From positions 1 through 37,800 of the IMG/VR virus record IMGVR_UViG_3300018424_008687: a stretch of 37,800 nt of DNA. One strand, given 5' to 3'. Both the position numbers and the translations under genes were made by a program. Within the stretch, counting starts at the first letter, position 1. Each line of letters opens with the position of its first letter. Shown here in pieces: positions 15,189 through 37,800 of this stretch. Source of the stretch: a virus. The notes under the pieces are model-generated. The model saw nothing but the letters and a program-made list of their open reading frames with translations. It made no database searches and had not been told where the DNA came from.

Positions 15189-15530
15189 TTAGTTTTTACT
15201 CGCATTTCTGATTGAAGTTCCTGAAATTTCTTTTATATCCTCAGGAGGGAAGTGTTCAATGACCTCATAACCGACCCCTCTTCCATAATTAACGGATTCG
15301 ATATCAGGAATAATAGATAGTAGGACCCTATCACTATTCTCTTTAAAGAATGGTTCCTCACTGAGGCTCATAAGTACCTCGTGTGCTGTTTTAGGGTTGT
15401 TTTCACCAACCTCAACATCTCTAATAGCAACCCAACAGTTCTTTCCCTGATCTAATTGTTGTCTTATTAACCATTCATGTCCCGAATGCCATGTTTGCCA
15501 TCTACCGATGAACATTGCGTATTTTTTCAT
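15189..15530 (-). CDS. HxGH-type nucleotidyltransferase (cytidylyl/adenylyltransferase-like)
   Basis: This is a 113-residue protein of the cytidylyltransferase/NMN-adenylyltransferase superfamily. It has the N-terminal nucleotide-binding signature FIGRWQTWHSGHEWLI (residues 8-21, catalytic-type His15 and His18) and a C-terminal ISGTSIR (102-108), which matches the ISxTxIR phosphate-binding motif. It is short but complete for the minimal family fold. Such enzymes join an NMP to a phosphorylated small molecule, for example making CDP- or ADP-activated groups. Its start overlaps the stop of the APS-kinase-like gene by ATGA, so the two are probably made together and may act in sequence (a kinase followed by nucleotidylation). 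The substrate cannot be read from the sequence. Confidence 0.85.
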   Translation of the reverse strand: MKKYAMFIGRWQTWHSGHEWLIRQQLDQGKNCWVAIRDVEVGENNPKTAHEVLMSLSEEPFFKENSDRVLLSIIPDIESVNYGRGVGYEVIEHFPPEDIKEISGTSIRNASKN

Positions 15531-15979
15531 AATTGTTTAAGTATTTTCAATAACGATTCTTCAGGAGAATCTAATGTGGTGTCGATATCTATATAATTTT
15601 CGGTTGGTGGTTCGTAATCTTTTACGTGGAAGTGGTCTCTCTCACGTTTTTCGGTGGTATGGGTGTAGATCTCAACTATATTGTCACCCAAATCTATTTT
15701 AAATTCTTCTCTAAGGTCTAAAAACGGTGCAACCAAACTAACAACCACATCACAATCTTTATTGTGTATGAATTTGGCGATCATTTGTGCGTTTCTAATG
15801 TTATTAACCCTACCCATTGGTGAATAGTCTTTGTTGGAACTTAGATTCCTTAAATCGTCCCCATCAATGTGGAACACCTCTTTCCTTAAGTTTTTTTTCT
15901 CTAATTCTAAATGTTTTTTTAGTAGTAATGCTAAAGTTGTTTTACCCGATGAGGGCTGTCCTGTAATCCAATAAATCAT
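15527..15979 (-). CDS. APS-kinase-like P-loop kinase
   Basis: This is a 150-residue kinase resembling adenylylsulfate kinase (CysC). The Walker A loop GQPSSGKTT is at 7-15, followed by HIDGDDLR at 37-44, equivalent to the DGDxxR signature, and GRVNNIRNAQMIAKF at 56-70, equivalent to the DRxENIRR helix. The open frame extends 10 codons further to a GTG at 16009, but the ATG at 15979 is preferred: it puts the P-loop at the usual distance from the N-terminus and avoids overlap with the small gene upstream, whose stop is 4 bases away. True APS kinases make PAPS for sulfation. No sulfotransferase is visible here, so another small-molecule kinase role, perhaps feeding the adjacent nucleotidyltransferase, is equally possible. 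Confidence 0.85.
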   Translation of the reverse strand: MIYWITGQPSSGKTTLALLLKKHLELEKKNLRKEVFHIDGDDLRNLSSNKDYSPMGRVNNIRNAQMIAKFIHNKDCDVVVSLVAPFLDLREEFKIDLGDNIVEIYTHTTEKRERDHFHVKDYEPPTENYIDIDTTLDSPEESLLKILKQL

Positions 15980-15983
15980 TTCT

Positions 15984-16103
15984 TTAATGGTTATATGTGA
16001 AGGGATCACGTTTCTTTAATTCCTTCATTATTTCATTATACTTTTTATCCTCTTTAGTTTTTTTTCTAAAGATTCTTTTCAAAAAATTAATTAATCTCTT
16101 CAT
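15984..16103 (-). CDS. Small basic protein, 39 aa, unknown function
   Basis: This frame reads MKRLINFLKRIFRKKTKEDK at the start and ends KKRDPFTYNH before a TAA. Its ATG overlaps the TGA of the carbamoyltransferase gene as ATGA, and its stop lies 4 bases before the ATG of the kinase, so it fills the gap exactly and fits translational coupling. The first twelve residues could form a basic amphipathic helix that contacts a membrane or nucleic acid. About a third of the residues are Lys or Arg. There are no Cys residues. I do not recognise a family. The junctions are the main evidence that it is a real gene. Confidence 0.65.
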   Translation of the reverse strand: MKRLINFLKRIFRKKTKEDKKYNEIMKELKKRDPFTYNH

Positions 16104-17767
16104 TGTTTGTAAATAATAAAATTCTGTAATATTAGGATGTCAATATCAACCTCTTCAAATGTTTTCATAGCATCTTGAGGTGTCAACACCATTGTTTTAT
16201 CTTTTATATTGAAAGATGTGTTTAATAAGATTGGGTAAGAGGTTATCTTCTCAAACTCCCTAAGTAATGAATGTATTGGGTTGTCCCTGCTAACGGTTTG
16301 AACTCGGGCAGTACCATCAATATGAGTAATTGCAGGTAGTTTATCTCGATATTCTTCCTTAACCTTTATCACTTGATTCATGTACGGTATGTTTTGGTTA
16401 GATTCGAAAAAATCCGCTTGTCTCTCTTTTGTGACCATCGGGGCGAAAGGTCTAAATCCCTCTCTCTTTTTAACTAAATCGTTAATTCTTTTTTTCATTT
16501 TAGGATTCCTTGGATCGGCAAGAATTGATCTACCCCCTAATGCTCTTGCACCGAACTCAATTTCATTTTTAAACCAACCTATAACCTTACCTCTACTTAA
16601 TTCTTTTGATATGATCCTATTAATTGTGTCATTATTGGCGTAGAAACTTTTTGAATGTTTTATCTTCTTTTTGAAATCTTTATTGACATTGAAGGATGGA
16701 CCCAAAAAAGGTGTTGTTGGTATACTAACTCCAACTCCTTTATTCACGTAATAATTAATACACGCCCCTATTGATGATCCCGAATCTGAGGGTGATGGTG
16801 GTATCCAAATGTTACTAAAATTAGTCCTAAATGGTATCTTACCATTTGCTAACCCGTTGTATGCACATCCACCACCTAACATGATATTGGGTGTTTTGTG
16901 TAATTCTCTTAAATGATTTAAAAATGAGAAAAGTACATCTTCATATACCTCCTGAACCGCACGGGCCAAGTCTTTATGTTCTTTACTTATTTGGGTGTCA
17001 GGTAAACGTGGTGGTATTCCCAATAAAATATATAAGTTCTTATTGTACATGATTTTATCTGATTTGTCCCAATCAAAATATTTCATGTCACAATGTATTC
17101 CACCATCATTAAAGTAAATGATCTCACTTAATTTGTTTTTAAGGTGGGTTCTTTTACCATACGCACCCAACCCCATGACCTTATATTCACCTTCATTCGG
17201 TTTAAAACCTAAATAAGATGTCATTGCCGAATAAAATAACCCTAAAGAATGTGGGTATTTGGATACTCCCGTCACCTCGAGTTTAGACCCCCTAAAATAA
17301 GGGGCGAATGTTGTTGTTTCATATTCACCAACACCATCAATTGAGACGACTAAACCACTTTTGAATGGTGAACTATAGGAAGAGTAATATATGTGAGAAT
17401 CGTGGTGTTTACTGTAAAAAACATTCTTATTAAAGACCTTTAAATTTTTATTAAGGTCATATATGTTCTTTAAAGACTTATAAAGGATCCTAATAGAGAA
17501 GATTGGGTTTTTAGTGATATTCTTCTTGGCGGTCTCCACCACTCTTTGGTGTTTTAGTTTAGGTTGTTCATAAAAACACACCGTCTCCAAATTCTCGTCA
17601 GTAACCCCATATTTCCTATAAATGTAGTCAATGGTTTTTTTAGGGAAAGACTTATCATGTTTAATTCCCGTAAATTTCTCTTCTTCGCACGCAAATATTA
17701 ATTTACCATCCTTGAATAGACAGGCAGCAGAATCATGATAATAAGCGGAAATCCCTATGGTGAACAT
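16100..17767 (-). CDS. O-carbamoyltransferase, NodU/TobZ family
   Basis: This 555-residue protein is the full family length. NodU/TobZ enzymes transfer a carbamoyl group from carbamoyl phosphate to a hydroxyl, usually on a sugar, through a carbamoyl-adenylate. Visible signatures are GISAYYHDSAACL at the N-terminus, EEEKFTGIKHDKSFP, the metal-site HxxxH (His121, His125), Asp144 in SIDGVGEYE, LGGGCAYNG, Asp328 in PPSPSDSGSSIGA, GARALGGRSILADPR and NTSFNIKDK near the C-terminus. The N-terminal ASKHA-like and C-terminal YrdC-like halves are both represented. A 50-base gap precedes the gene, which is large for this block, and no good Shine-Dalgarno is seen before the ATG, so a weak promoter there is possible. 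It probably finishes a sugar made by the upstream genes. Confidence 0.95.
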   Translation of the reverse strand: MFTIGISAYYHDSAACLFKDGKLIFACEEEKFTGIKHDKSFPKKTIDYIYRKYGVTDENLETVCFYEQPKLKHQRVVETAKKNITKNPIFSIRILYKSLKNIYDLNKNLKVFNKNVFYSKHHDSHIYYSSYSSPFKSGLVVSIDGVGEYETTTFAPYFRGSKLEVTGVSKYPHSLGLFYSAMTSYLGFKPNEGEYKVMGLGAYGKRTHLKNKLSEIIYFNDGGIHCDMKYFDWDKSDKIMYNKNLYILLGIPPRLPDTQISKEHKDLARAVQEVYEDVLFSFLNHLRELHKTPNIMLGGGCAYNGLANGKIPFRTNFSNIWIPPSPSDSGSSIGACINYYVNKGVGVSIPTTPFLGPSFNVNKDFKKKIKHSKSFYANNDTINRIISKELSRGKVIGWFKNEIEFGARALGGRSILADPRNPKMKKRINDLVKKREGFRPFAPMVTKERQADFFESNQNIPYMNQVIKVKEEYRDKLPAITHIDGTARVQTVSRDNPIHSLLREFEKITSYPILLNTSFNIKDKTMVLTPQDAMKTFEEVDIDILILQNFIIYKQ

Positions 17768-17817
17768 ATATTAGTAATTACTTAAAATATACGTTTTTAT
17801 AGGGAAAAAGAAAATGG

Positions 17818-18684
17818 TTATCTTAAATTAAAGTATATGCCGTTTTGGGGGTTCGGATAGGTAATATCTTCATCATCAAAATAAACTCTTGTGTCTTGTT
17901 TTTGATAAAAAAGGTTGGTCTTCTTTTCGAAGAAATGATTTACTCTGGCATGGTTAAATTCCGACATAGACTTTACCTTCTCGTCCAATTCAATAATGGT
18001 TTTATCATCAAGAACACGATCATACCCAATTCTTGGTATTAATATGTCATCTAACCAATTCACGTGTTCTATTATTGTAGGGTGGTAATCAATCTCACCA
18101 CCAAATTTGTATATACCTTTTCTATCCCACTCATCACTTTCAGGAATTAAGTAATTTTTAAAGTCAATAACATCCAATGGCGATTCACCCTTAACATATT
18201 CCATGTGATCTTTAATGTCTGAGTTCACGTCACCCTCACCTATGTAATTATCGGTATATTTGAATACGTCGAACATGGCGGTGGTTATATGAGGAATTTG
18301 ATTTACCTCTAAAAATGATTTAATTGCAAGTATGGTATTTAAACTTCTATGGATTAGAGATTCTTCAGTCCAAAGACTGTATTGATACTTTACCAACTCA
18401 GATGAAGTTGTCTGACCCCAACAAGACCAAGTACTAACCTTTTTATCACCATCACTGAGGTTGTTTATATCCCACCTTATCAATGAAGGGTACATAATAA
18501 CAACGGTATCATTCTCATTAATTTTATACTTGTTTGTCGCCCAAATTAATTTATTTAAGATTTGATCGTATCCACCACCTGTTTGACCTAAGTTAATCCC
18601 TCTATTACCATAACATATAATGTCCGCCCATGTTATCCAATTATAGGAAGTGAAACTACAACCAAACGTAAAGATTCTACCCAT
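17818..18684 (-). CDS. SGNH-hydrolase-like protein A
   Basis: This 288-residue protein has SGNH/GDSL-type landmarks. Block I is FTFGCSFTSY with candidate nucleophile Ser10, block II is the Gly-rich QTGGGYDQI near 35-41, and the C-terminal acid/base pair is Asp199-Tyr-His201-Pro followed by a further His. SGNH proteins hydrolyse or transfer acyl esters, and many members in glycan loci act as sugar O-acetylesterases or acyltransferases. The ATG at 18684 overlaps the upstream TGA as TGATG. A GTG one codon earlier is open but gives no benefit. The next gene encodes a second protein of the same general type. Substrate is unknown, and an acyl ester on the island's glycan is a guess. Confidence 0.7.
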   Translation of the reverse strand: MGRIFTFGCSFTSYNWITWADIICYGNRGINLGQTGGGYDQILNKLIWATNKYKINENDTVVIMYPSLIRWDINNLSDGDKKVSTWSCWGQTTSSELVKYQYSLWTEESLIHRSLNTILAIKSFLEVNQIPHITTAMFDVFKYTDNYIGEGDVNSDIKDHMEYVKGESPLDVIDFKNYLIPESDEWDRKGIYKFGGEIDYHPTIIEHVNWLDDILIPRIGYDRVLDDKTIIELDEKVKSMSEFNHARVNHFFEKKTNLFYQKQDTRVYFDDEDITYPNPQNGIYFNLR

Positions 18685-19418
18685 CACAATGAATTTATAA
18701 ACTTATTAAAGTGAGGATAGAAGTACCCCTCAAAAATATCTTTATGTTGATCACTACTGTAATGGTAATCTAACTCAGGTTTACCGTATATTCTTTTTTC
18801 GTGTGTGTAAGTCGCAACACATTTATCAACAACATAATCAATGTTATCTAAAATTCCCTGATAATGATTTTCCCTGTTTTTTTGTTTGAGTAATTCATCA
18901 AACTCCACAAACCAACTAAACACAAAAAGTTTTGTGTTGAACATTTTAGATAAACCTATGATTGATAGTAGTGTGTGAAAAATTTTTACCTTTAAATTAT
19001 ATCTCGTTGTGCTTATATTTTTTAGTATGAAATCATCCACTTTAATATCCTCGTTTAGTAACGAAGATAAGTAAGTGTTGTTATCGTATATATTAAAGGT
19101 ATAATACAGTACGTCATCGAATTCACGATCCGAGTGGTACATTTGATTCGGAGGTAAAGACATCTTATTATAATTAATATTAAAATCTCTTATACCTTGA
19201 GTAAGTCGGGCGGGTTCTGTTAATTGGACCACAATAACGTCAATATCGTTATTTGACAAAATATGATATAATTTATCAATAAACATTTCATTCCCACCTC
19301 CCGGTGACGATGATGAAATCACACTGTATTTATCAGGATCTAAATAATCGTGGTAAGGTCTCCCAAATAAAAACGATGAGTGACTACAACCAACTACCGC
19401 AACATTCGTTTTACTCAT
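18684..19418 (-). CDS. SGNH-hydrolase-like protein B
   Basis: This 244-residue protein begins with a beta strand and VVGCSHSSF, placing Ser12 at the nucleophile position. It continues with a Gly-rich SSSPGGGNEMF turn and the strand VIVVQLTEPAR, in the order expected for an SGNH fold. The C-terminal catalytic pair is less clear than in protein A: LDYHYSSDQHKD has Asp and His candidates but not the usual D-x-x-H-P. It starts by ATGA overlap with the GT-like gene upstream and ends at the start of protein A. It could be an inactive or divergent partner of A. The family call is moderate and the function is not known. Confidence 0.55.
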   Translation of the reverse strand: MSKTNVAVVGCSHSSFLFGRPYHDYLDPDKYSVISSSSPGGGNEMFIDKLYHILSNNDIDVIVVQLTEPARLTQGIRDFNINYNKMSLPPNQMYHSDREFDDVLYYTFNIYDNNTYLSSLLNEDIKVDDFILKNISTTRYNLKVKIFHTLLSIIGLSKMFNTKLFVFSWFVEFDELLKQKNRENHYQGILDNIDYVVDKCVATYTHEKRIYGKPELDYHYSSDQHKDIFEGYFYPHFNKFINSL

Positions 19419-20836
19419 ATCAATTCATTAAATTCCTTATATGGTATTTTGGGTTGTATATCTTCCAATATTTCACCCAACCTAAAAGAATTAAAAGAGG
19501 TTAAGTGATTAAAGTTGTGTACTAAAATTGGTTCCATGTCTACATACATTTGTTTTAGCTCATTATAACCCATTTTATTTATATCTCTCATTATGGACAT
19601 GATTTTATGGATTTTCTCCTTAAATGTTGGTGCATCGTCATAAGATTCATCCCAAAAATCATTAAATGTTTTAAACCCTTTATCCCTTAAATGTTTCAAA
19701 CTACCATTACTATTGACCATAATAAAAGGTTGTAAACAATACATTGGTTTGAAGGTTTTTTCTGAGAAGAATACTTCACCATTAACTTTGGTTTCAGAAA
19801 CAATTGATAGGAATGTCTTTTTATGCATTCCAAGATCGATAGTCATTGCCTGATTTTCGGTGATATCTACGTCATCAAAAGTTAAATTCTCGACAAACCC
19901 ACTAAAAAAATCATTTATTAAGTGGGTCTCCTTTGTGGTGTAACCGTATATCTCATAGGATTGATATCTTGTTCTTTCCTCATTCCAAAAACTTAGGAAC
20001 GTGTCTCTTTTTAATACATCATCATTCATCAACTCATACGTAATCAATCTTCGGTGTTGATGTGCTCTTCTTTGGTAACAAAGGAATTTTCTTTCGAAAA
20101 TTGGGTTTGTGTTCTTGAGTGCAAATTTTCTGAAGTCATTTTGTATTTCCTCCGTATGTATGTCTCTCCTAACTTTGGTTATTTCGGTGTTCATGTTAAT
20201 GAACCATGGGAAGTCCCAAAAATACATATAGGGTACAAACTCAAAATCAGAGATGGACAGATCCGGTGGTGTTTGGTCACCACAAAGAACTTTAAAATTA
20301 TCCCTATTTAATTTATGTTTTTTTGAAAATGAGACTAACTCATTATAAAATTTAGTGGGTATTAAAGAAAAGGGTTCACATGCAGTATGCATTGCAATTA
20401 CACCTAACCCTTCGTGAACCATTTCTAATACTTCATCAGGTATTCTTAAAATCCTAAATTCATTGGAATTATTGGTGTCAATCACATAAACAAAGGGTAT
20501 GTTTTTCCCTTTTATCTCATGGGTCAGTTTAACCTTTTCTCTTATTCGAAACCCCATGACAGTATTCATAAGTCTACCACCCTCGATAGGTTCATAGAAT
20601 ATTGGATTCATTACGTCCCCATTCACTAACACTTTAAAATAGGATTGGTATTTATCCAAATCGTTTGAGTTGATTCGTTTTATTCCGGATCTTGATTCGA
20701 AATATTCAATATCAAACCCATTTGGATAATAGTCAACAAACCTACTCTGTCCTTTATGTACGCCGCTTGATTTATCGAGAACCATGATCTCAATATGGGC
20801 GTAATTATCGAAAAGATAATTGAACTTATAGTCCAT
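19415..20836 (-). CDS. GT-like protein with EKT-type donor-site module
   Basis: This 473-residue protein has a C-terminal half (about 250-470) with two recurring elements: an Arg-rich helix LCYQRRAHQHRRLITYEL and, around Glu359, the motif VFFSEKTFKPM..LQPFIMV followed by LRDKGFKTF. The order of an acidic residue, Tyr/Phe, (S/T)EK, a hydrophobic Pro step and then a Gly-Phe is reminiscent of the TEK nucleotide-sugar site of GT10 fucosyltransferases and exostosin-like GT-B enzymes. Two other proteins here share it. The N-terminal half is unrecognised. The frame is open to a GTG at 20863, but the ATG at 20836 has GAGTGG upstream and reduces the overlap with the radical SAM gene to 11 bp. A transferase role is inferred and the sugar is unknown. 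Confidence 0.65.
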   Translation of the reverse strand: MDYKFNYLFDNYAHIEIMVLDKSSGVHKGQSRFVDYYPNGFDIEYFESRSGIKRINSNDLDKYQSYFKVLVNGDVMNPIFYEPIEGGRLMNTVMGFRIREKVKLTHEIKGKNIPFVYVIDTNNSNEFRILRIPDEVLEMVHEGLGVIAMHTACEPFSLIPTKFYNELVSFSKKHKLNRDNFKVLCGDQTPPDLSISDFEFVPYMYFWDFPWFINMNTEITKVRRDIHTEEIQNDFRKFALKNTNPIFERKFLCYQRRAHQHRRLITYELMNDDVLKRDTFLSFWNEERTRYQSYEIYGYTTKETHLINDFFSGFVENLTFDDVDITENQAMTIDLGMHKKTFLSIVSETKVNGEVFFSEKTFKPMYCLQPFIMVNSNGSLKHLRDKGFKTFNDFWDESYDDAPTFKEKIHKIMSIMRDINKMGYNELKQMYVDMEPILVHNFNHLTSFNSFRLGEILEDIQPKIPYKEFNELI

Positions 20837-22034
20837 ATTTGGACCACTCGGGTAAAAACTCACTCATTTTATTTTTTCTTTGGTTATCAAGTATCTTGGA
20901 GAACCTTATAAATTTATCAAACTCCTCTTGACTACTTTCTTTGAATAGTTCCGCCTTTAGACGATCGACCTCATCTTCTCTGAGGTATTTTATATTGTTG
21001 ATGATCTCGTCTTTCATTTCCTGAGGAATGATCGACACATGATGATGAGAGGGGTGATGTACGTAGTTGTGTGCGATTACAATATCATATTGATTGAAAA
21101 ATTGTTTGAAATTATCAATATTGTAAACGTTTAAACAACTAACTGTTTGGCATATCTCCAATCTAAAGATGTCTTTATAATCCATGATCTTGTGGAAGTT
21201 TTTCATTATGTTACTCCAATTAGAACCATGTCTAATGTATTCATTCCTACCCTCAGTGTCATCAATTGATAGGTGTAACCTGACATGTTTAAATTTTTTC
21301 CATATCTCTATGAATTTATCGGGTATTGACCACATGTTTATACTGTAGTGTAGGTTCACATTTTTAGATCTCCCATCCTCAATCAATTTTTCTAAGAAGT
21401 ATGCATGTTCCCTAATAAGGGTTGGTTCACCACCGTTTATCCAAACCTCTTCCAACCCATCACACTTAGTTAATAGTTCGTCATAAAAATCATGACTTCT
21501 AAACCACTCCGTCCTTATATCACATTTGAAGTAATTTTTCTCAAACTCAGTGTCTTTAAATGCATCAACATCTTCATTCCATCTGTTACTACTAAAAGGG
21601 TTACATGTAACACATTTTAAATTACATACAGTCCCCAACCTAAGTTCGATGTATTTGTAGTTTACGTTTTTTATTGTACCGTCTTCTTCTGTGTTTTTAA
21701 TTGCGTCATCAATTAAATGTGAGAACTTTAAGTTACTCTCCATTCTCTTACTGTAAATTTTATTCTTCTCGTAGAAGTAACAAGTCTTACATTCGGATGG
21801 GAATTCACCTGAGATCATTTTTCTTCTTACTTCTTTAAAGTTTTTAGAGTTTGCAATATCCTCGAGTGAATCTTTATCTAAAAATAAATTTAGATCGTCT
21901 TTTTTGGCGGTACTCATATCATTCTCCATATCAGTGATACAACATGGTGTAACAGTCCCTATGGGATGAGTTGCTAAATGAATAAATGGTAAAACACAGA
22001 ATGGTTTTCCGTCGAATTCTTCTTCGTTAGTCAT
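20826..22034 (-). CDS. Radical SAM enzyme with N-terminal twitch-like cluster (CC type)
   Basis: This 402-residue protein has the radical SAM motif Cys137-x3-Cys141-x2-Cys144 (CNLKCVTC) and GGEP at 201-204, so it should bind a 4Fe-4S cluster and SAM. The auxiliary Cys cluster comes before the core: Cys13 in FCVLPFIHL, Cys31-Cys32 in VTPCC, and Cys82/Cys85 in CKTCYFYE. This is the inverted order of twitch/SPASM-like proteins, in which auxiliary Cys are normally C-terminal. SIDDTEGRNEYIRHGSNW after the core is shared with the other copies. It overlaps the dehydrogenase gene by 8 bp. The substrate could be a sugar or a peptide, and nothing in the sequence decides this. Confidence 0.9.
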   Translation of the reverse strand: MTNEEEFDGKPFCVLPFIHLATHPIGTVTPCCITDMENDMSTAKKDDLNLFLDKDSLEDIANSKNFKEVRRKMISGEFPSECKTCYFYEKNKIYSKRMESNLKFSHLIDDAIKNTEEDGTIKNVNYKYIELRLGTVCNLKCVTCNPFSSNRWNEDVDAFKDTEFEKNYFKCDIRTEWFRSHDFYDELLTKCDGLEEVWINGGEPTLIREHAYFLEKLIEDGRSKNVNLHYSINMWSIPDKFIEIWKKFKHVRLHLSIDDTEGRNEYIRHGSNWSNIMKNFHKIMDYKDIFRLEICQTVSCLNVYNIDNFKQFFNQYDIVIAHNYVHHPSHHHVSIIPQEMKDEIINNIKYLREDEVDRLKAELFKESSQEEFDKFIRFSKILDNQRKNKMSEFLPEWSKYGL

Positions 22035-23115
22035 TATAATCTATTAATCTATCTTTCCACACATCATAATGTGTTGATTTAGGTTTATGGTTAGTGTTTA
22101 ATAGGACAATCAAACTATCGTCATCTTCTTCATCAATCAGACAGGTAATGCCTCGTTTTATTAAAGAATTATATAATAAAACCGCGGAAGATCCGGTTAG
22201 GTTATCTACACCAACCTTATAAGACAATCCAAATAACGACACCCCTTTCTTATTTGTTTTTTTTAGGTGTTTAATGATTCTATTTGTTAACCACTCTACA
22301 TGATCAAACCTTTCATTTACGATATTTGAAAATATACCGTTGTTTACATCATGACCACTAATAACCATACTATCTCTTGGGATGCATGGACCACCTGAAG
22401 GTAATCCCACATTCAAAAATTTAGGTGAATTAAATAGTGGGAACGTTTTAAGATTATCTAAAATATTTTGAGCGTCTCCACCGGTAATGTCTGTTAGTCT
22501 TTGAACAGAATTAACAAAACTTATTCTCAATGATGTGTAAGAATTATGTAACATCTTAATAAGTGATGCCTCCAAAGGAGAAACCTTATTCACATGACCA
22601 ATAGTACCCACCTCTTCATATAGATCAATAAGTTTTTTATATGATTCCGAAAAACTCCCTATTATCACATTTTTTTGATCTTTTATTGATTGATATTCAT
22701 TACCCCCTTCAAACATAAAAGGGTTATAGATTATATTCAAATAATTGTACTCTTCGAAGATACTTCTTATCTTATCAGGTGAAATTGTTGAAGTGATAAC
22801 TACGGTCACTTCAGTGTCTTTTATGTTATCAAGTATATTATCTACAGAATCGTAATTGTAGTCAAAACCAATTAACTCTTTTTGATCTATCACTTTAGAA
22901 CCATCATATTCTTCGGGTTGTGGTGTTGATACACAAATAAAAATGAGGTCTTTGCCTGTGGTTGCATCATCTAAATCCTGAAACTCGTAAGAATCATATT
23001 TTTTGATGATGTCATAGTATGATAACTTATGATTACTATTATCACGAATGACATCATAAAGTGAGGTACCTAACTTACCTAAACCAATGATTGATATGTT
23101 CAATGTTTTAATCAT
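22027..23115 (-). CDS. Nucleotide-sugar 6-dehydrogenase (UDP-Glc/GDP-Man dehydrogenase family)
   Basis: This 362-residue member oxidises a sugar C6 alcohol to a uronate using NAD. It shows the N-terminal Rossmann motif GLGKLG (11-16), FICVSTP (59-65), the central helix with Lys187 and Asn191 (SLIKMLHNSY), the catalytic-Cys loop GGPCIPRDS with Cys244 and Asp248, and LFGLSYKVGVDN at about 294-305, the start of the C-terminal UDP-binding part. It is shorter than typical members (about 390-450), and the usual NPEFLREG is reduced to NPFMFEGG, which keeps only one of the two Glu. It is the one gene here that points firmly to a uronic-acid-type precursor. It overlaps its neighbours by 8 bp on each side. 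Confidence 0.9.
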   Translation of the reverse strand: MIKTLNISIIGLGKLGTSLYDVIRDNSNHKLSYYDIIKKYDSYEFQDLDDATTGKDLIFICVSTPQPEEYDGSKVIDQKELIGFDYNYDSVDNILDNIKDTEVTVVITSTISPDKIRSIFEEYNYLNIIYNPFMFEGGNEYQSIKDQKNVIIGSFSESYKKLIDLYEEVGTIGHVNKVSPLEASLIKMLHNSYTSLRISFVNSVQRLTDITGGDAQNILDNLKTFPLFNSPKFLNVGLPSGGPCIPRDSMVISGHDVNNGIFSNIVNERFDHVEWLTNRIIKHLKKTNKKGVSLFGLSYKVGVDNLTGSSAVLLYNSLIKRGITCLIDEEDDDSLIVLLNTNHKPKSTHYDVWKDRLIDYND

Positions 23116-24853: not shown

Positions 24854-25605
24854 TTCTCAACGGTTTTGTCAATAGGCTTCCCTTCATTTTCATCATAGTA
24901 ATATAGACTTCTATGTGGTAAATCGTCTTTCTTATATTCTGAGGAACTCACATAGAAAAAGAATCTAAATCCATCTCTATAATGACCTTCAGGACAGTTT
25001 AGGGGATTAGGGTGTCCGTGGTATCCAAGTTTGTCGTACTGCCACACTAACATATTACCATTAGAGGGGAATATTGAATGTACTTTACCACTTCTATCTT
25101 TGTCCCATAATTGTAAATCACCATTCCAACTCTCATCCCATTCGGGATTTAGATAAAAGATCACACTAAGTGCCCTATGTAAATACAATTCATTGTTCCA
25201 ATTGAAATCAGTGTGGATTTTAAGACTATCACCTCTACCACATCTCATGTAACCCGCACCAACCAATGAAGGATCCGATATTAAACCTTTAATACCTGTA
25301 ATATCTTCTAAAAAACTAATAAATGTTTTAGAGTGAACCGCACTTATTAAATTCTCCGCATGTTCAAATTCATGGTTATCCAATATCTCAAACATGTTTG
25401 AACCTGCACGTGTAAATATTTTATGATTGTCTTTATTAGTGGTGTATTCGTGATCTAATTCATTTTTTAGGGAGATTACAACATCATCACTCAAAAATTC
25501 AGGAAATACATACCATGGGACCGGATTATTGGTTTGGAAAGTCTTCCTTATTTTATCTCTGTCAAAAGTTTTTAAATCATGTTTAATTAAATTTTTAATG
25601 TTCAT
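24850..25605 (-). CDS. 2-oxoglutarate/Fe(II)-dependent oxygenase, prolyl-4-hydroxylase-like
   Basis: This 251-residue protein has the double-stranded beta-helix iron site: HTD at 131-133 (His131, Asp133), a distal His in YHGHP at 195-199, and Arg214 in YRDGFRFFFY, which would bind 2-oxoglutarate. The stretch SVIFYLNPEWDESWNGDLQLW between them is the usual core strand pair. It should hydroxylate a substrate, either a peptide side chain or a sugar/lipid, using O2 and 2-oxoglutarate. It lies 2 bases after the GT-like gene and overlaps the aminotransferase fusion by 4 bp, so it is in the same transcript. Oxygenases of this kind are common in marine phages. Substrate is not visible. Confidence 0.88.
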   Translation of the reverse strand: MNIKNLIKHDLKTFDRDKIRKTFQTNNPVPWYVFPEFLSDDVVISLKNELDHEYTTNKDNHKIFTRAGSNMFEILDNHEFEHAENLISAVHSKTFISFLEDITGIKGLISDPSLVGAGYMRCGRGDSLKIHTDFNWNNELYLHRALSVIFYLNPEWDESWNGDLQLWDKDRSGKVHSIFPSNGNMLVWQYDKLGYHGHPNPLNCPEGHYRDGFRFFFYVSSSEYKKDDLPHRSLYYYDENEGKPIDKTVEK

Positions 25606-25607
25606 TA

Positions 25608-28090: not shown

Positions 28091-28092
28091 AT

Positions 28093-30839: not shown

Positions 30840-30840
30840 A

Positions 30841-31506
30841 TTATTTTTCTAAAATTTTATGAATGAAATTACAATTACCTGTAAAATCATATACTTTGTA
30901 ATTCGTCTTCTCTTTAAAATCGTACAACCCAACCACTTCATAATCACCAACGTCCTTGGTTTCATAGATTGATTTGATATTATTAAAAGATAAGTATTTT
31001 TTTGATATTAATAAATGATCAATGTCATATTCACAGTAGTTTAGGTTAAATCCATTATGAGGGAAATTACCTGACCCAAAAAGAATATGAGGTTCATGAC
31101 CCACACTTAATTTTTGACCTCCAACCATCATTTTTTCAAGTACTACCATATCATTAATTAAAACCTCAATGTAGTTAAGTTGTTTATTATATCTGATAGT
31201 TATAAAATTCCAATCCCAACCTAATTCGTTGTTTATGAAAAGATACTCTGCCTCCACTTTACCATCTTTTTCAAAATTGCAGATGAAAAGAAGGTTATTG
31301 TTTTCTTTTTCCACGTCCAATCCCATGTAGTTAGGTAGTTTCGCAAATAAAGTCCTCTTAGATGGTTCCTTACTTAGTATTTTAACCCTCATATTGATGG
31401 TAAAATCATTTCCACCCTCAAAAACGGAACCTATGTCTCCTTTATTTATTCCATATGAGACCGTATCGGGCCACAATAACCATGGTTCTCCGTGTTCTAT
31501 TGTCAT
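30841..31506 (-). CDS. Free-standing LamG/concanavalin-like lectin domain protein
   Basis: This 221-residue protein has LamG-like jelly-roll features: VFEGGNDFTINMRVKIL near the N-terminus, the paired strands WNFITIRYNKQLNYIEVLIND (about 116-136) and a C-terminal YDIDHLLISKKYLSFNNIKSIYE, the usual closing strand and helix of LamG folds. There is no signal peptide and no catalytic motif. It lies between two CHH-type radical SAM genes, with a 4-bp overlap on one side and a 1-base gap on the other. The same type of domain is inserted in all three GT7 enzymes upstream, so it may bind the glycan or acceptor that they handle and present it to the radical SAM enzymes. That role is inference. Confidence 0.75.
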   Translation of the reverse strand: MTIEHGEPWLLWPDTVSYGINKGDIGSVFEGGNDFTINMRVKILSKEPSKRTLFAKLPNYMGLDVEKENNNLLFICNFEKDGKVEAEYLFINNELGWDWNFITIRYNKQLNYIEVLINDMVVLEKMMVGGQKLSVGHEPHILFGSGNFPHNGFNLNYCEYDIDHLLISKKYLSFNNIKSIYETKDVGDYEVVGLYDFKEKTNYKVYDFTGNCNFIHKILEK

Positions 31507-32885
31507 ATCTTAATTTTATTAAAGAATTCTTCTAATTCAGGGAACGTCTTAATAAAATCAGTCCCTCTACGTCTATCATGTTCAAGAACGAACCTTTTAA
31601 AGTTTTGTCTTTCGATGATTTTATCATCACCTGACTCAGAAATAGACCAATCATAAATTCTCTTTATTTTTTCGGTTTCAACTTCTGTCATACCCATGTG
31701 TTTATTATCAAAAACAGGAACACCTAAGTAAAGTGATAACTCAGCATTGGTTAGTATTAATTCCTTATGTTCATCGGTGAGTAATTTAACCGATTGATGA
31801 GCTGGATATCTTAAATAAGAAGTATCTAACAATATTGGGTGTAACCAAAATCTATCTTCATTATAGTGGTCATATTTTAATTGGTGGACGTTCTTTATTA
31901 GTTTGTTATAAGTAAAGGGACTCATTAGGTTATAAGTGGACATAATGGTTACCGTAACTTTAGGTAATTCACTTAATACTTTATTAAGGTTATCCCAAAA
32001 TTTATTAAACTCGAGTCCATTTCTTATATACTCCGCTTGTTCACCCCACGCATCCACTGAAGTGAATAGTATTACCTCTTTGACTCTATCCTCATCTATA
32101 ATTCTCTTGAGTTTCTCAATCATTCTATCGATAAGTCCGTCAACCACACCTAAATTAGAATTAATTGCAAATTTTAATTCTTTATTTGGGTTTGGGTGTT
32201 CGATTATGTAGTCCAATACTTTCCATGTGTCTTTAGATAGTAGAGGTTCTCCTCCTGTAATTCTAAATGTGTTTAAGTCTTCATAGAGTTCGGGCCACCA
32301 CTTCCAAAACGCCTCGACATAAGGATTGTATTCACTCTGTAGTATGGGTACACTACCTTCCGCAACCATGGTTTCATAACTATTAAATGATGGTTGTGTT
32401 GGATATCCTCCGTGTTCTTTCGATTCCTGAAACCATTTAGATGAATATGCGGGTCCACAATAAGAACATTTGAAGTTACATGTGTTGGTAAATGACACCT
32501 CCACATATCTCGGATTAAAATCTGACTTCCAATCCGAGTTAACGATTTCATCGAAGTGAGGTTTAGACCACGGTTCTGAGGATTTATAGATACGATCAGA
32601 ATATACATCTGAGTTATCTTCAATGTTCCAACAGTATTCACACTCGGAAGGTCTACCTCCCGTTAACATTTCCTTTCTCTTATACTTTTTGAAGATGGTG
32701 TTGTGTAATGCCTTAGGATTTTTCTCCACCTCCCTTACGGGGATTTTATGTACACTTGGGTGGTGACATGAGTGGTTAAAACCTGTTTGTAAATGCATGG
32801 TGACTTGTGTCCATTTTGCAAGACACATCCCACACCCAACAGAGTTTAATTTATTTTTAGTCTCTTCAAAATTAGTATTTGACAT
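31503..32885 (-). CDS. Radical SAM enzyme with N-terminal twitch-like cluster (CHH type)
   Basis: This 460-residue protein is the second CHH-type copy. The N-terminal auxiliary residues are Cys18/Cys21, Cys40-His41-His42-Pro (SCHHPSVHKIP) and Cys82/Cys85 (CEYCWNIED). The core is Cys136-x3-Cys140-x2-Cys143 (CNFKCSYC), with GGEPLL at 211-216 and TSVDAWGEQAEYIRNGLEF. Its N-terminal 220 residues match the protein at 29247-30839 closely, including ALHNT..KK..RK.ML.G.RP.ECEYCW. It ends without the acidic tail of its sister. It starts by a 1-bp TAATG overlap with GT7 copy 1. The shared operon suggests the radical SAM chemistry acts on the GT7 substrate or product. Confidence 0.9.
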   Translation of the reverse strand: MSNTNFEETKNKLNSVGCGMCLAKWTQVTMHLQTGFNHSCHHPSVHKIPVREVEKNPKALHNTIFKKYKRKEMLTGGRPSECEYCWNIEDNSDVYSDRIYKSSEPWSKPHFDEIVNSDWKSDFNPRYVEVSFTNTCNFKCSYCGPAYSSKWFQESKEHGGYPTQPSFNSYETMVAEGSVPILQSEYNPYVEAFWKWWPELYEDLNTFRITGGEPLLSKDTWKVLDYIIEHPNPNKELKFAINSNLGVVDGLIDRMIEKLKRIIDEDRVKEVILFTSVDAWGEQAEYIRNGLEFNKFWDNLNKVLSELPKVTVTIMSTYNLMSPFTYNKLIKNVHQLKYDHYNEDRFWLHPILLDTSYLRYPAHQSVKLLTDEHKELILTNAELSLYLGVPVFDNKHMGMTEVETEKIKRIYDWSISESGDDKIIERQNFKRFVLEHDRRRGTDFIKTFPELEEFFNKIKI

Positions 32886-34318
32886 TACAGTTTTACGTTT
32901 AACATTTCACAATCATCGTCAAACATAATAGTTTCCACTAATTCGTATTTGAGATTAGACATTCCGTCGTTTTTATAGTCGATTTTCTTTTGTTGCATTT
33001 CCCTAACGAATCTCTTTTCGTTCTTTGCGGTGGTCTCTCCTTGATGCCACTTACCATTAACAAAACCTAAGTCCAAATGTGGTAAACAGTAAAACTTACC
33101 ATCTCTTCTATATGGTAATATGTTTTCAACGATTTCGATGTCGGTATTTCTAATTTCTACATCATTTAAAGTACCAACAACACCATTAACCTTATCTGTG
33201 ATTTTACCATCACTAATATTTTCAAAGTCGAGATCCATAACTGCACCATCACTACCACCTTCAAAGACATGTGATATCTCTTCGGGTGAGAAGAATCTAT
33301 TATATACCTTACACTCGGCAATTTCACCTTTGAGTCTTGTGTTTGCTTGTGGGTCGAAACCTAAATAAAATGGATTTCTTAGATCATATCTTAATAATCT
33401 ATTATCAAAATCTAATGGTCTTTCTTCCTTTTTATTCCTAACATTGGTCGCCAACTCATCATTTACGTAACAATACATTTTCTTATTCTCCGCATCAATG
33501 GATATGGTAAGTCTTGTCCACATGTTCTCAAACCTCTTTATCCAATTATAAATCGGTGCCCTTGTCATATCAAATAATTGAAAGGTCATTGCTCTTGAGT
33601 TGTTGAATGATATTCCATAGTTGAATCCCCCACTTTTTCTAAAGATTGGGTACTCGATGAACTGTCTATCCTCATCACCCACTAACCATATTGGAACCTT
33701 ATCCTCTTGTTGTTGGGTTTTGACTAATAAGGTTATCGTATGATTCCTATTTAAGTACTCCACAACCCTCCTATTCGATGGAATTTCAACATGAGAAGTA
33801 TCTCCATTAAAGTATAACGAAGGTCTATTAGTTTTACTGTCAATTACTTTACCGGTGGTATACCCCTCATAGTAAGCCCTCCAAAACAGGTCGTCATCCT
33901 CCATACCCCAATCCCAATAATCGTTAGAGTATCCATTAGTTCTTTCAACCTGTTCCTTATTGAAAAGGATGACACCACCGAAGTATTGATCATAACTCAT
34001 ATCATATCCGTACTTTGATAGTTGAGTGGCGATATGTATTGGGGTCTCTTCAGGATACGAATAATCACAAGTCTCATCATAGGGTAACATATCAACATCA
34101 TGCCAAGCAATGTAATCACATCCATCCTCGAACGCTCTTTTTGCTGCAATATTTTTCATTGCACCCCTATTAAATAACTTATCATCGACTTGGTGAGCAA
34201 CATAAAATTTATGATCTATACCCTGTCTATTTAAGTGTTTTCTTAAGTGGGGTACCAATCTCTTTAAGTGTTCCTCCCTATCTCTATATGGTATACAAAT
34301 ACCTAATTTGTGACTCAT
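32885..34318 (-). CDS. GT7 beta-1,4-galactosyltransferase-like enzyme with inserted LamG domain, copy 1
   Basis: This 477-residue protein has an N-terminal GT7 half (1-150): IPYRDREEHL, FNRGAMKNIA, the metal-binding HDVDMLP (Asp74, Asp76), QYFGGVILFN and NGYSNDYWDWGMEDDD (128-143). Residues about 165-355 form a LamG domain (SLYFNGDTSHVEIP, WTRLTISIDAENKKMYCYVND, GEIAECKVYNRFFSPEEI). The GT7 pattern then resumes with a late NEKRFVREM and DGMSNLKYEL (451-460), corresponding to the DGLNSL.Y end of animal beta-4-GalT. Family enzymes use UDP-Gal or UDP-GalNAc and Mn2+. The animal catalytic core is about 270 residues, so the extra length is the lectin insert. Donor and acceptor here are unknown. 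It starts by ATGA overlap with copy 2. Confidence 0.9.
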   Translation of the reverse strand: MSHKLGICIPYRDREEHLKRLVPHLRKHLNRQGIDHKFYVAHQVDDKLFNRGAMKNIAAKRAFEDGCDYIAWHDVDMLPYDETCDYSYPEETPIHIATQLSKYGYDMSYDQYFGGVILFNKEQVERTNGYSNDYWDWGMEDDDLFWRAYYEGYTTGKVIDSKTNRPSLYFNGDTSHVEIPSNRRVVEYLNRNHTITLLVKTQQQEDKVPIWLVGDEDRQFIEYPIFRKSGGFNYGISFNNSRAMTFQLFDMTRAPIYNWIKRFENMWTRLTISIDAENKKMYCYVNDELATNVRNKKEERPLDFDNRLLRYDLRNPFYLGFDPQANTRLKGEIAECKVYNRFFSPEEISHVFEGGSDGAVMDLDFENISDGKITDKVNGVVGTLNDVEIRNTDIEIVENILPYRRDGKFYCLPHLDLGFVNGKWHQGETTAKNEKRFVREMQQKKIDYKNDGMSNLKYELVETIMFDDDCEMLNVKL

Positions 34319-35568
34319 ATTTGAACTGTTAATTTTCTATAACCCTTAAGGTTCTTATCTTTTATTAATTCATATTCTAAACTATTCAAACCCTCATTAG
34401 TAAAATCGTTTAATCCTTGTTTTACTATGTTGTTATAATAGATTTGATTATTTCTTGTTTCCTTATGTATCCAATTCTTTTCTACGGATGCATTATTGTC
34501 ATGGTATAACTCCCTGAAAATCCCATGCCTTCTTATTGGTTTAGGTATCGACGTTGAATGGTTAATCTCTCGATCGGTTACTTGTGACTTATACATCGTT
34601 AGATCTGTTGTTGAACACTTAATACCATTCAACTTTAGGGTTATTAAGTTCATATCAAACTCAACTCTTTCCTTATCTGAAATAGATCCCACATACATAA
34701 ACTTATTTTGTAGATCTAATATGTCATTATCCATTGTAACCTCACCAACAAACACGTCATTCATAAACATAGAAACCTTTCTATCTTTTTTAATGATTCT
34801 AAATGATGATGTGACATCATCTAAGACATCAGTGGTGATTGAATAAGGTTTCTTATCCTTATCGAAGACCTGAAAAAAGAAACGGTTGAATGAGTTGTAG
34901 AATAGACCTATATTATAACCCGGTATACAAATTAATGGGTACTCATCATATTCTTTATTTTCGTTAAAGTACCTTGAATTAACTTTAATTGTTGTATCAA
35001 TATTGAAATCGTTGGTTAAGAAGTCTTCTTCTATCTCAACTCTGCAGTACCCATCCTCGATAATCTCGACAGAATACTTACTGTAATTGTCCACACCAAC
35101 TTTCTCGGTGTCGAAGAATAAACCACCATGAGTAACTCTATGGAATAAGTCGTCATCTTCGAATCCCCATCCCCAATAGTTATTTGAATATCCGTTGATA
35201 CCAACGAAGTCCTCGGTATTAAAGATGGTTACACCACCGAAATATCTAAACAATATATCACCCTCCTTATTCTCAACTTTAGAAACTAATGATGTTGGGT
35301 ATTTTGGATAACTGTAGTCTACATCAATAGGTAATAAATCAACATCATGAAAGCACAAGTAATCGAACCCTTCATCAATTGCAATTTTAGATCCAATATT
35401 TAGAAGTTTACCTCTATTAAAAGGTCCGTTATCCGACTGTTCCACCACGAATATTTGATATTCCTCTATCCCATTTTGGGGTAGGAAATCACTCATATAC
35501 TTAATGAACGTTCTAAGATGATTGGGTCTATCCCTATACGGTACTATTATCGCCAGATTCTTCTTCAT
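34315..35568 (-). CDS. GT7 beta-1,4-galactosyltransferase-like enzyme with inserted LamG-like domain, copy 2
   Basis: This 417-residue protein uses the ATG at 35568 (MKKNLAIIVPYRDR). The frame stays open to a TTG at 35598, but that would add residues not found in the family. The GT7 half has VPYRDRPNHL, FNRGKLLNIG, HDVDLLP (Asp75, Asp77), RYFGGVTIFN and the intact NGYSNNYWGWGFEDDD (125-140). A beta-rich insert of about 200 residues (150-350) contains KKDRKVSMFMNDVFVG, a LamG-like strand pair but more diverged than in copy 1. The frame resumes with NEGLNSLEYELI at the C-terminus. This copy keeps the full WGWGxEDDD set, so it is the best candidate for an active enzyme. It overlaps the 79-residue gene by 35 bp. 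Confidence 0.88.
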   Translation of the reverse strand: MKKNLAIIVPYRDRPNHLRTFIKYMSDFLPQNGIEEYQIFVVEQSDNGPFNRGKLLNIGSKIAIDEGFDYLCFHDVDLLPIDVDYSYPKYPTSLVSKVENKEGDILFRYFGGVTIFNTEDFVGINGYSNNYWGWGFEDDDLFHRVTHGGLFFDTEKVGVDNYSKYSVEIIEDGYCRVEIEEDFLTNDFNIDTTIKVNSRYFNENKEYDEYPLICIPGYNIGLFYNSFNRFFFQVFDKDKKPYSITTDVLDDVTSSFRIIKKDRKVSMFMNDVFVGEVTMDNDILDLQNKFMYVGSISDKERVEFDMNLITLKLNGIKCSTTDLTMYKSQVTDREINHSTSIPKPIRRHGIFRELYHDNNASVEKNWIHKETRNNQIYYNNIVKQGLNDFTNEGLNSLEYELIKDKNLKGYRKLTVQI

Positions 35569-35773
35569 ATTCTCGTTTTGGTCTATTTGTCCCACCAATA
35601 GTCTTGGCTTTGCTTAATTCATAAAACTCATTCAGGTACCATTCAAGTCTTTGGGACCATGATGCGGTATCTAATTCGTAAACAAAATTGTTTATTCCTT
35701 CTAATGAATCTGCAATTCTTTCGAGGGCTTCTACACCCCTCTTATTTAAATTCTCTTTATCAGATGTCGCCAT
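35534..35773 (-). CDS. Small helical protein, 79 aa, unknown function
   Basis: This 79-residue protein begins MATSDKENLNKRGVEALERI, followed by ADSLEGINNFVYELDTASWS and QRLEWYLNEFYEL, and ends in a charged tail. Its residues 14-53 resemble residues 13-50 of the coiled-coil protein upstream (LE.(I/F)AD(S/T)LE.I....D..SWS/DDWS....L..YL.E), so the two probably share a small helical domain. It overlaps the coiled-coil gene by 14 bp and the GT7 copy 2 gene by 35 bp. No enzyme motif is visible. The overlaps and the paralogy to a neighbour support its being a real gene. Confidence 0.65.
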   Translation of the reverse strand: MATSDKENLNKRGVEALERIADSLEGINNFVYELDTASWSQRLEWYLNEFYELSKAKTIGGTNRPKREYEEESGDNSTV

Positions 35774-36485
35774 ATTTTAGTCTTTTATTTAATATTAAAT
35801 TATTTTTGATGGTCTCGAATACCTTCTCTTCGGGACTATCCAATTCCACTTTCCATTCAGAATCTTCTATGTGATTTTCTATTTCAGAAAGTTTATGATC
35901 AATAACCTCCACCTTCTTATATAAGTCGTCATTTTCCGCACTTATAGTAGAAGTGTTTTTATGTATGTCTTCGATATCGGATTCTAAAGACTTAATCTCA
36001 AAATATTCCCCATCGACAATACCATTTCGTTCGGTTTCCAATTTTTTAATTTGATCGTATTCCTCCTGTACTTTCCTTTGTAGTTCCTCCTCTATGGATT
36101 TTATATTTTCATAATGTTTTTCAATAGAAGAATTTAAGGTGTCCTCAGTTTCTTTTATAGTGTCGTAATGTTCCCTTACCTGATCCCACTTTTCATTTAC
36201 AATATTCGGTGACTCTTCTAACCTCTTAACGTTCTTATTAATTTCATCGAATAAGATCTTTTTTTCTTCTTGTAATTTCAATTTTACGGACTTACTCTCG
36301 TCCGTTTTAAAAACAAAATCGTAGATGTTAGATTCTTTAAGATTAGATTCGAGATACAACAAAAAGAGTGATACCACAACAGACCAATCATCAGATTCGT
36401 ATCTGATATTTTCTAAGGTGTCCGCAAACCCCTCCAATTTATTAACTACGGGTTCTGTAAACTCTATGTAACTATCTTGTACCAT
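35760..36485 (-). CDS. Coiled-coil protein, 241 aa, unknown function
   Basis: This 241-residue protein has a short N-terminal domain (1-50) with KLEGFADTLENI...DDWS and a hydrophobic VVVSLFLLYLES stretch that is probably a buried helix, not a membrane span. Then, from about 65 to 215, there is a long run of Lys/Glu-rich heptads (for example KIKLETER-like and SIEEELQRKVQEEY) expected to form a coiled coil. No catalytic motif is seen. It lies between GT7 copies 3 and 2, overlapping copy 3 by 22 bp, and its N-terminal domain is echoed in the 79-residue protein next to it. It may act as a scaffold for the glycosyltransferases or be a minor structural protein. Both are guesses. Confidence 0.75.
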   Translation of the reverse strand: MVQDSYIEFTEPVVNKLEGFADTLENIRYESDDWSVVVSLFLLYLESNLKESNIYDFVFKTDESKSVKLKLQEEKKILFDEINKNVKRLEESPNIVNEKWDQVREHYDTIKETEDTLNSSIEKHYENIKSIEEELQRKVQEEYDQIKKLETERNGIVDGEYFEIKSLESDIEDIHKNTSTISAENDDLYKKVEVIDHKLSEIENHIEDSEWKVELDSPEEKVFETIKNNLILNKRLKYGDI

Positions 36486-37800
36486 TCTGTGTTATCATCA
36501 TATGTTGTTTTATTCAGGACTTTGTAATTAATTGAGTTCAACCCATATTTCTTACTATCTATTTTACCTTCCAATAAATCCATATAGGTTAGTTTGTTTT
36601 CAATTATGTCAGGATCATAGGTATCGATTAATTCTTCGAATTTTAATCCTTCGATATCAAACTGACCTTCCTTCCTGTTCGGAGTGTATATTTCTGTGGG
36701 ATCCTTAAAATGAAATTTCGTTTTAATGTCAATCATTCCACCAATCTGCCATACCGATGCGGTCATATCTAATAATACGGAATTTTCCTTAAAAAGACAA
36801 GGTTTTCTAAGATCTAACCAATCCGCATCGATACCATAATAGTATTCTTTACTGATCTCAAAATCATTTAATTTTCTCTTAAATAATTTAAAATCATATA
36901 GGTTAATAAAGTTGTGGTTGTCAACATCACCTATCAACAATGTCGCGGACCTAACCCTTAACTCACCATGATAGGTAATCTCTTCACTTAGATTTGAATT
37001 GACGTATATATGAACATACTTATTCTCACTATCATGTGTCACCACAAAATGATTTAATACTGATAAATCAAGATCTTTAATTTCGATTTGGAACATGTTC
37101 ATATCGGTATTGAACATTTGAACAATCACCTGATTGTCGTTAGAGAATACTTGAAAATCCCAACCATTATGTGTCCTAAAGAAGGTGTTTTTGTTTATAG
37201 GGATTTCCTCTTCCCTGTAAAAAAATGAAATAGTGAAATCATTCAATAGATTATTCGACGGTTTAGTCATAAAAATAGATTTAGGTTGTAATGAAATCAA
37301 CGAACCATATCTACTTATCTTCCTATCTTTAAAATCTGTTTTGAATATTTCATTATTAGAGTATCCATACTTTTTGTTCATTTTAACCTTGGATGTTGCA
37401 CACCTGTGTAGGAGATCTAAATCAATATATCCTTTACCCCAATAATCATTTGAAAATCCATTAATTTCGTCAAATACGTCTTTTGGAAATATTACAACTC
37501 CACCAAAGAACTGTTCGTAGGGTAAGTCAGTACCATCACCTTCTCTATATCCGAATATTTGAGTAGGGGTGTCCACATAATAATATTCAGAACTATCGTT
37601 CTTAGGTAGTAGATCAACATCGTGGAAACAGAAATAATCGAAGTTATCTTTAATTTCATTTACAACCGCGTTACATAATTTACCGTAGTTGAAGGGTCTA
37701 TCGTCAGATTGCTCCGCAACAAATATTTTATAGTCTATTTGTTTATTAGATAAAAACTCCACCATATGTGGTAGAAATACATCTAACTCGTCTCTTCGGT
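36464..37800 (-). CDS. GT7-like protein with LamG-like insert, copy 3, altered active site; runs off right edge
   Basis: At least 445 codons are visible and the frame continues upstream of the first in-window ATG (37765). Residues RRDELDVFLPHMVEFL before it fit the family's N-terminal PYRxRxxHL...F helix, so the true start is beyond the edge. The metal motif HDVDLLP and QFFGGVVIFP are intact, but the acceptor/catalytic motif reads YWGKGYIDLDLLHR instead of WGWGxEDDDLxxR: the second Trp becomes Lys, Glu becomes Ile and one Asp becomes Leu. A LamG-like insert (HFVVTHDSENKYVHIYVNSN, INLYDFKLFKRKLNDFEISKEY) precedes a C-terminal KYGLNSINYKVL. It may have a different acceptor or be a non-catalytic glycan-binding copy. 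Confidence 0.85.
   Translation of the reverse strand, partial: RRDELDVFLPHMVEFLSNKQIDYKIFVAEQSDDRPFNYGKLCNAVVNEIKDNFDYFCFHDVDLLPKNDSSEYYYVDTPTQIFGYREGDGTDLPYEQFFGGVVIFPKDVFDEINGFSNDYWGKGYIDLDLLHRCATSKVKMNKKYGYSNNEIFKTDFKDRKISRYGSLISLQPKSIFMTKPSNNLLNDFTISFFYREEEIPINKNTFFRTHNGWDFQVFSNDNQVIVQMFNTDMNMFQIEIKDLDLSVLNHFVVTHDSENKYVHIYVNSNLSEEITYHGELRVRSATLLIGDVDNHNFINLYDFKLFKRKLNDFEISKEYYYGIDADWLDLRKPCLFKENSVLLDMTASVWQIGGMIDIKTKFHFKDPTEIYTPNRKEGQFDIEGLKFEELIDTYDPDIIENKLTYMDLLEGKIDSKKYGLNSINYKVLNKTTYDDNTEWYKIVT

Follow-up and report, generated by a model that had tools for sequence, protein, structure and literature searches.

In those sections of the pelagimyophage study that deal with it (Zaragoza-Solas et al. 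2020, PMC7029224), the host recognition cluster (HRC) is a hypervariable island located among the structural genes of marine T4-like phages, in which GT8 is the most represented glycosyltransferase (GT) family and for which modification of the host lipopolysaccharide was proposed. A conserved core glycan with virus-specific decorations, made by cytoplasmic virus enzymes, is carried by the capsid of chlorovirus PBCV-1 (PMC7826918). Glycosylation of virion proteins has also been reported in mycobacteriophages, at the C-termini of capsid and tail tube (Freeman et al. 2023, as cited in PMC12619734), and Nishimura et al. (2017, PMC5332604) discussed iron-sulphur cluster assembly (IscU) in connection with the 12 radical SAM genes of an environmental T4-like genome. 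Here we analysed a window of 37,800 bases, which is the entire IMG/VR record IMGVR_UViG_3300018424_008687 (a linear fragment, GC 36%), and in which an island of 20 co-directional genes (15189-37765, all on the minus strand) carries part of a core of glycan genes whose order is fixed in its viral relatives and which may serve to glycosylate the virion.

Fibres, GTs, a UDP-glucose dehydrogenase and radical SAM cassettes are common to this island and to the HRC as presented in those sections, and the relatives of the island, which have fibre-like genes beside the core and in many cases the T4-type capsid protein gp23, contain a hypervariable fibre and GT island in a T4-like structural region, as the HRC does. 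The original prediction, according to which no described phage pathway had such a combination of enzymes, was too strong, because hypervariable islands of this type are reported in pelagimyophages in the sections covered of PMC7029224. However, unlike the present relatives, the HRC in those sections has no fixed core of GT, methyltransferase, paired GT7 and radical SAM genes; the HRC landmarks VrlC and gp14 lie outside our window, which ends before either. The environmental genome of PMC5332604 is similar in that it, too, comes from a marine T4-like virus rich in radical SAM genes, with no glycan core discussed there, and the mycobacteriophages, as far as they are covered in PMC12619734, are similar in that phage virion proteins carry glycans, as is proposed here for the fibre. 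By analogy, the nearest working analogue of the island is the chlorovirus capsid glycan, with which it would share virus-encoded cytoplasmic GTs and a conserved core oligosaccharide with variable decoration on a virion protein (as proposed here); PBCV-1 differs in being a virus of eukaryotic algae, and its acceptor is the major capsid protein, which is proven.

The part of the core that is visible in the window, with the genes that accompany it, is as follows:
36464..37765, minus strand: GT7a, a third, divergent protein with GT7 and LamG domains (Pfam GT7N, GT7C and Laminin_G_3; PDB beta4GalT1, E 1e-22)
35760..36485, minus strand: coiled-coil protein between the GT7 copies (sub-threshold coiled-coil Pfam matches only)
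34315..35598, minus strand: GT7b, beta4GalT-like transferase, core gene (PDB beta4GalT1 and beta4GalT7, E ~1e-30)
32885..34318, minus strand: GT7c, beta4GalT-like transferase with an inserted pentraxin/LamG domain according to Pfam and an AlphaFold2 (AF2) model, core gene
31503..32885, minus strand: rSAM1, N_Twi radical SAM enzyme, core gene (NF033640, E 6e-102; CNFKCSYC; located after the GT7 pair in relatives)

Viral relatives were found by scanning with rSAM1 (509) and GT7c (211). Among 50 long records, all 50 contained an N_Twi radical SAM gene and 49 contained GT7N, with GT7 nearly always present as a tandem pair, and a strong gp23 was detected in 26. When 12 contigs were read gene by gene, conservation extended to the genes that immediately precede the GT7 pair: one for a protein of about 245 residues with a DAD motif and no Pfam match, which its sequence suggests is likely a GT-A enzyme, one for a Methyltransf_24 methyltransferase, and one for a Glyco_tranf_2_4-like (GT2-type) transferase slightly under the Pfam cut-off. 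The core thus reads [GT-A?]-methyltransferase-GT2-GT7-GT7-radical SAM. Assignment of the three upstream genes to the neck proteins gp13-15 was rejected, given that hhalign returned nothing and Pfam pointed to a GT2-type transferase and a methyltransferase.

By hidden Markov model count, the order methyltransferase-GT2-GT7-GT7(-GT7)-rSAM1 was present in about 86 of the 93 evaluable unique loci found via rSAM1 or GT7c, more than half of which also had the GT-A-like gene. A search with the GT2-like gene alone recovered the same order, from methyltransferase through the GT7 pair to rSAM1, in 48/48 evaluable unique loci, which do not represent 48 independent events since only near-identical sequences were removed from the core counts and related ones were kept. 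The end of the contig falls inside the island, so only part of it is visible, and the window is the truncated edge of a larger and more regular gene array: it is cut off before reaching the methyltransferase, GT2-like and GT-A-like genes of the relatives, the 5' end of GT7a may extend past the contig end, and no longer contig of the same virus past 37800 was found with GT7a as the query. Searches of 50,697 isolate phage records with the GT7c, GT2-like and GT-A-like genes gave no match, and rSAM1 matched only three Vibrio phages (21-23% identity). No description of a GT7 pair with a radical SAM enzyme was found in the open-access literature, closed papers being outside that search. This type of hypervariable island is already known; its fixed core appears to be undescribed.

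The three GT7 open reading frames (ORFs) of the window matched this family in Pfam (E 1e-13 to 1e-23), with GT7N and GT7C domains above the cut-off. The AF2 model of GT7c (pLDDT 93.2, pTM 0.88) matched beta4GalT1 (1tvy) by both chain ends (VIA Z 28.6, rmsd 1.7, 217 aligned residues, 32% identity), and its residues 163-440 matched pentraxin/LamG-type (ConA-like) domains (Z ~20). Since both ends correspond to the transferase and the intervening residues to LamG, the lectin-type domain of the modelled GT7c sits inside the transferase, ahead of its last strand. The phage enzymes have the fold, the DxD motif and the catalytic Asp in common with the vertebrate beta-1,4-galactosyltransferases 1 and 7, from which they differ in being soluble and viral and in having a pentraxin/LamG insert of about 230 residues before the C-terminal GLNSLxY strand, a motif that GT7b retains. 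Both Asp residues of DVD (the DxD metal motif) and the catalytic Asp were invariant in 62/62 GT7 sequences, and 61 of the 62 had Y at the Gal/GalNAc-determining position. We take the Y289 rule to apply to this position, so that Y points to a Gal donor, which hints that the GT7 enzymes transfer Gal. In GT7a the residues that align with E317, D319 and the metal His are I, L and L, and with these replacements it may not be an ordinary transferase. One possibility for GT7a, which comes after the coiled-coil gene along the window, is that it serves GT7b and GT7c as an inactive partner.

The fibre block of the window lies immediately downstream of the island:
3611..15136, minus strand: giant tail-fibre protein of 3841 aa, candidate acceptor (phrog_22284 and phrog_9729, tail fiber)
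206..3599, minus strand: three tandem phrog_1417 paralogues, a fibre-module marker (E 1e-45 to 1e-51)

The island had been placed directly upstream of a giant fibre rich in Ser, Thr and Asn, and this was borne out: the 3841-aa ORF matched PHROG tail-fibre families and contains S 12.3%, T 13.5% and N 9.0%. In cyanomyophages the phrog_1417 family is a marker of the fibre region, where P-SSM4, for example, has a homologue. Across relatives, the association of the core with virion genes was found on its upstream side. In the set obtained with rSAM1 or GT7c, the 4 kb upstream of the core contained the end of a virion fibre-like ORF in 46/54 loci and the 4 kb downstream contained the start of a fibre-like ORF in 5/73, and in the independent set found with GT2 the corresponding values were 32/35 and 0/14, compared with 32% of random positions in the same loci lying near a fibre-like ORF. 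The upstream ORFs belonged to PHROGs annotated as tail fibre, tail spike, minor head or virion structural, and in several loci the first core gene overlapped the end of the fibre-like ORF through its start and stop codons.

In the lineage with phrog_1417 (G003, G030, G033, G035 and G038, with G037 a weaker case), the island also leads straight into a second fibre gene and the phrog_1417 block, and most members retain the carbamoyltransferase and the kinase-nucleotidyltransferase pair, the remainder being variable cargo. It had been suggested that comparison of related contigs would tell whether the whole set travels with the fibre gene; the core does lie directly behind fibre-like genes, but the whole set does not travel. 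The closest relatives mostly keep the skeleton of carbamoyltransferase, kinase-nucleotidyltransferase, fibre and phrog_1417, while most genes between the radical SAM genes and the fibre vary. The phrog_1417 triplet after the giant fibre also recurs in G003, G030, G033, G035 and G038.

Taken together, these results make it slightly more likely than not, in our judgement, that the island is a phage-encoded virion glycosylation system, acting most likely on the adjacent fibre or fibre-like proteins; its acceptor, sugars, reaction order and purpose are what we infer. The fixed core (GT-A-type, methyltransferase, GT2-type, two GT7-LamG and radical SAM enzymes) would assemble a common oligosaccharide in the cytoplasm from host nucleotide sugars, and the variable cargo (additional GT-B enzymes, dehydrogenase, DegT protein, carbamoyltransferase, 2-oxoglutarate (2OG) oxygenase, radical SAM enzymes and the kinase/nucleotidyltransferase) would make rare sugars and decorate the core differently in each phage, with altered adsorption, protection of the fibre or escape from recognition as candidate purposes. 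A virion glycan fits best because the core is fixed and the cargo variable, the enzymes are soluble, and the genes lie behind those of the virion. A hydropathy scan of 276 ORFs from the 12 islands detected at most one membrane segment per ORF, and in the control, the rfb and adjoining region of E. coli, it gave 6 segments for WbbH, 9 for RfbX and 7 for WzxC. The proteins that characterise an O-antigen cluster (flippase, polymerase, initiating transferase or a Gtr-like multi-span protein) were absent from all 12 islands, and with no multi-span protein it is unlikely that the phage brings a complete O-antigen or capsule pathway. This absence also speaks against the idea that the enzymes alter a host surface glycan (O-antigen or capsule) during infection, blocking other phages or the phage's own progeny, and such a role does not require a place directly behind virion genes. 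Soluble transferases could nevertheless use lipid-linked precursors and the host's own flippase, O-antigen modification by phages is well established (PMC11990801), and a change of the host surface is the view of the HRC authors in the sections covered of PMC7029224; we regard this alternative, the main one, as unlikely.

Several observations weigh against a virion glycan. The reference set for fibre-likeness was built partly from ORFs of the same contigs, which is a weakness; the upstream ORF of one locus (L022) had a PHROG of unknown function as its sole match; another (L100) had upstream a GtrB-like GT domain, which would suit a host-surface role; and the T4-like late promoter motif TATAAATA was not enriched. 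As cytoplasmic acceptor, a protein, a lipid-linked sugar or a free sugar would all be compatible with the data. In Bdellovibrionota, moreover, relatives of rSAM1 have mixed neighbours, with no GT7 or obvious glycan genes nearby, and would agree with a soluble small molecule or glycopeptide (a toxin or a signalling compound), unrelated to surfaces, as the product of the radical SAM, oxygenase and transferase genes. SPASM/twitch radical SAM enzymes often modify peptides or aminoglycosides, which also favours such a product, but we noticed no candidate for a short precursor peptide, a transporter or an export gene, and the core is tied to virion genes, making this improbable. Glycosylation or hypermodification of phage DNA seems very improbable: phage GTs often act on DNA, and T4 BGT was among the GT-B fold matches of the cargo transferase GTx3, but these fold ties are non-specific, GT7 is a family with sugar acceptors, fibres are adjacent, and the island has no gene for nucleotide biosynthesis or base hydroxymethylation.

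Returning to virion glycosylation, we propose, tentatively and at somewhat less than an even chance, that a core operon common to widespread uncultured marine T4-like and jumbo phages builds a virion glycan by means of animal-type beta4GalT enzymes bearing a pentraxin/LamG domain and a radical SAM step, which exchangeable cargo would customise for each phage. Such a glycan would be the equivalent in bacteriophages of the core and decorations of chloroviruses, and would give N_Twi radical SAM enzymes their first role. We know of no substrate for this family (NF033640), for which the proposal, if true, would provide a testable substrate class, together with a soluble beta4GalT scaffold bearing an inserted lectin-type domain. 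Hypervariable host recognition clusters have long been known in ocean phages, and the fixed core gives a handle on their function. If the fibre is the target, exchange of sugar genes, in addition to that of fibre genes, would let phages alter the surface by which they adsorb, and the fibre sequence alone would not suffice to predict receptor binding.

The remaining genes of the island were assigned as follows:
30841..31506, minus strand: small protein, perhaps a LamG-like domain on its own (38 homologous ORFs in the fetched loci)
29247..30839, minus strand: rSAM2, N_Twi radical SAM enzyme (NF033640, E 4e-91)
28093..29250, minus strand: rSAM3, radical SAM enzyme with C-terminal SPASM-like cysteines (Pfam; N_Twi below cut-off)
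26753..28090, minus strand: rSAM4, N_Twi radical SAM enzyme (NF033640, E 1e-95)
25608..26753, minus strand: GT-B-like transferase with a TEKTLRP motif (hhalign 96.4% to the GTx3 alignment, 249 columns)
24850..25605, minus strand: 2OG-Fe(II) oxygenase (PF13640, E 2e-14)
23108..24853, minus strand: fusion of a shortened DegT aminotransferase-like domain (PF01041 in two pieces) and a GT-B-like C-terminal motif
22027..23115, minus strand: UDP-glucose/GDP-mannose-type dehydrogenase (PF00984, PF03721; phrog_9148)
20826..22034, minus strand: rSAM5, N_Twi radical SAM enzyme (NF033640, E 6e-103)
19415..20863, minus strand: GTx3, GT-B transferase with a conserved SEKxxKP motif (alignment of relatives; AF2 pTM 0.73)
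18684..19418, minus strand: possible SGNH protein (GCSHS motif only, no family match)
17818..18687, minus strand: possible SGNH protein (GCSFT motif only, no significant family match)
16100..17767, minus strand: NodU-type carbamoyltransferase (PF16861, E 1e-63; PF02543; phrog_1601)
15527..16009, minus strand: APS-kinase-like P-loop kinase (PF01583, E 6e-16)
15189..15530, minus strand: nucleotidyltransferase half of the kinase/nucleotidyltransferase pair (matches the C-terminal part of phrog_10255)

The ORF layout, with intergenic distances of -38 to 161 bp that are mostly overlaps, agrees with the near-gapless, one-strand island of 22 kb described in the original prediction, and its list of enzymes was confirmed in nearly all points by Pfam and NCBIfam domain searches; the kinase and nucleotidyltransferase pair is backed by phrog_10255. 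The proposed sugar aminotransferase has a DegT domain, but this is shortened and fused to a GT-B-like C-terminus (residues 443-540, hhalign 96.5% to GTx3), and the two SGNH proteins have the GCSFT and GCSHS motifs only, with no match in the libraries; that at 17818..18687 had no match in PDB either. A role in building and modifying glycans is, in our judgement, supported. tRNA and Rfam scans of the window gave no match.

All five radical SAM ORFs have an intact CxxxCxxC motif. With a curated cut-off of 170 bits for N_Twi_rSAM (NF033640) in NCBIfam, four of them scored 306-345 bits and rSAM3, with 50 bits, falls outside the family; relatives contain arrays of 1-9 such genes per record. No match to rSAM1 was found in PDB. 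Its relatives in Bdellovibrionota (L289-L293, L300-L309) have about 36-48% identity and are encoded in some cases in pairs or groups of four. No GT7 was present in the three Bdellovibrionota genomes checked and, with mixed neighbours as well, this context was dropped as a pointer to the rSAM1 substrate.

The best fold match of the GTx3 model was an alpha1,3-fucosyltransferase (VIA Z 12.6), with T4 BGT, TarM and exostosin tied within 1; membership of GT10 is not claimed, the fold score being tied with many GT-B enzymes. A LamG identity is not claimed for the small protein at 30841-31506, for which hhalign to the GT7/LamG alignment gave just 22% probability. The kinase and nucleotidyltransferase (15189-16009) are two overlapping ORFs here and a single protein in phrog_10255, and the pair is conserved in relatives; our guess is that it makes a CDP- or ADP-activated small alcohol.

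Homologues of rSAM1, GTx3, the DegT protein and the dehydrogenase were also found in two contigs (L297 and L299; 153 and 335 kb) of a Neomarinimicrobiota metagenome-assembled genome (MAG) that carries gp23 (E 4e-97) on contigs whose sizes match. These contigs probably belong to a T4-like jumbo phage that was assigned to the bacterial genome in binning, the L299 locus being probably phage because its MAG has gp23 on large contigs. Phage-like contigs with the whole or partial core were binned into Pelagibacterales and Gammaproteobacteria MAGs (L294 and L288), which is a weak hint to the host. The cargo of relatives includes repeated DUF6734 proteins (L249:11395-13376, L268:9222-10373).

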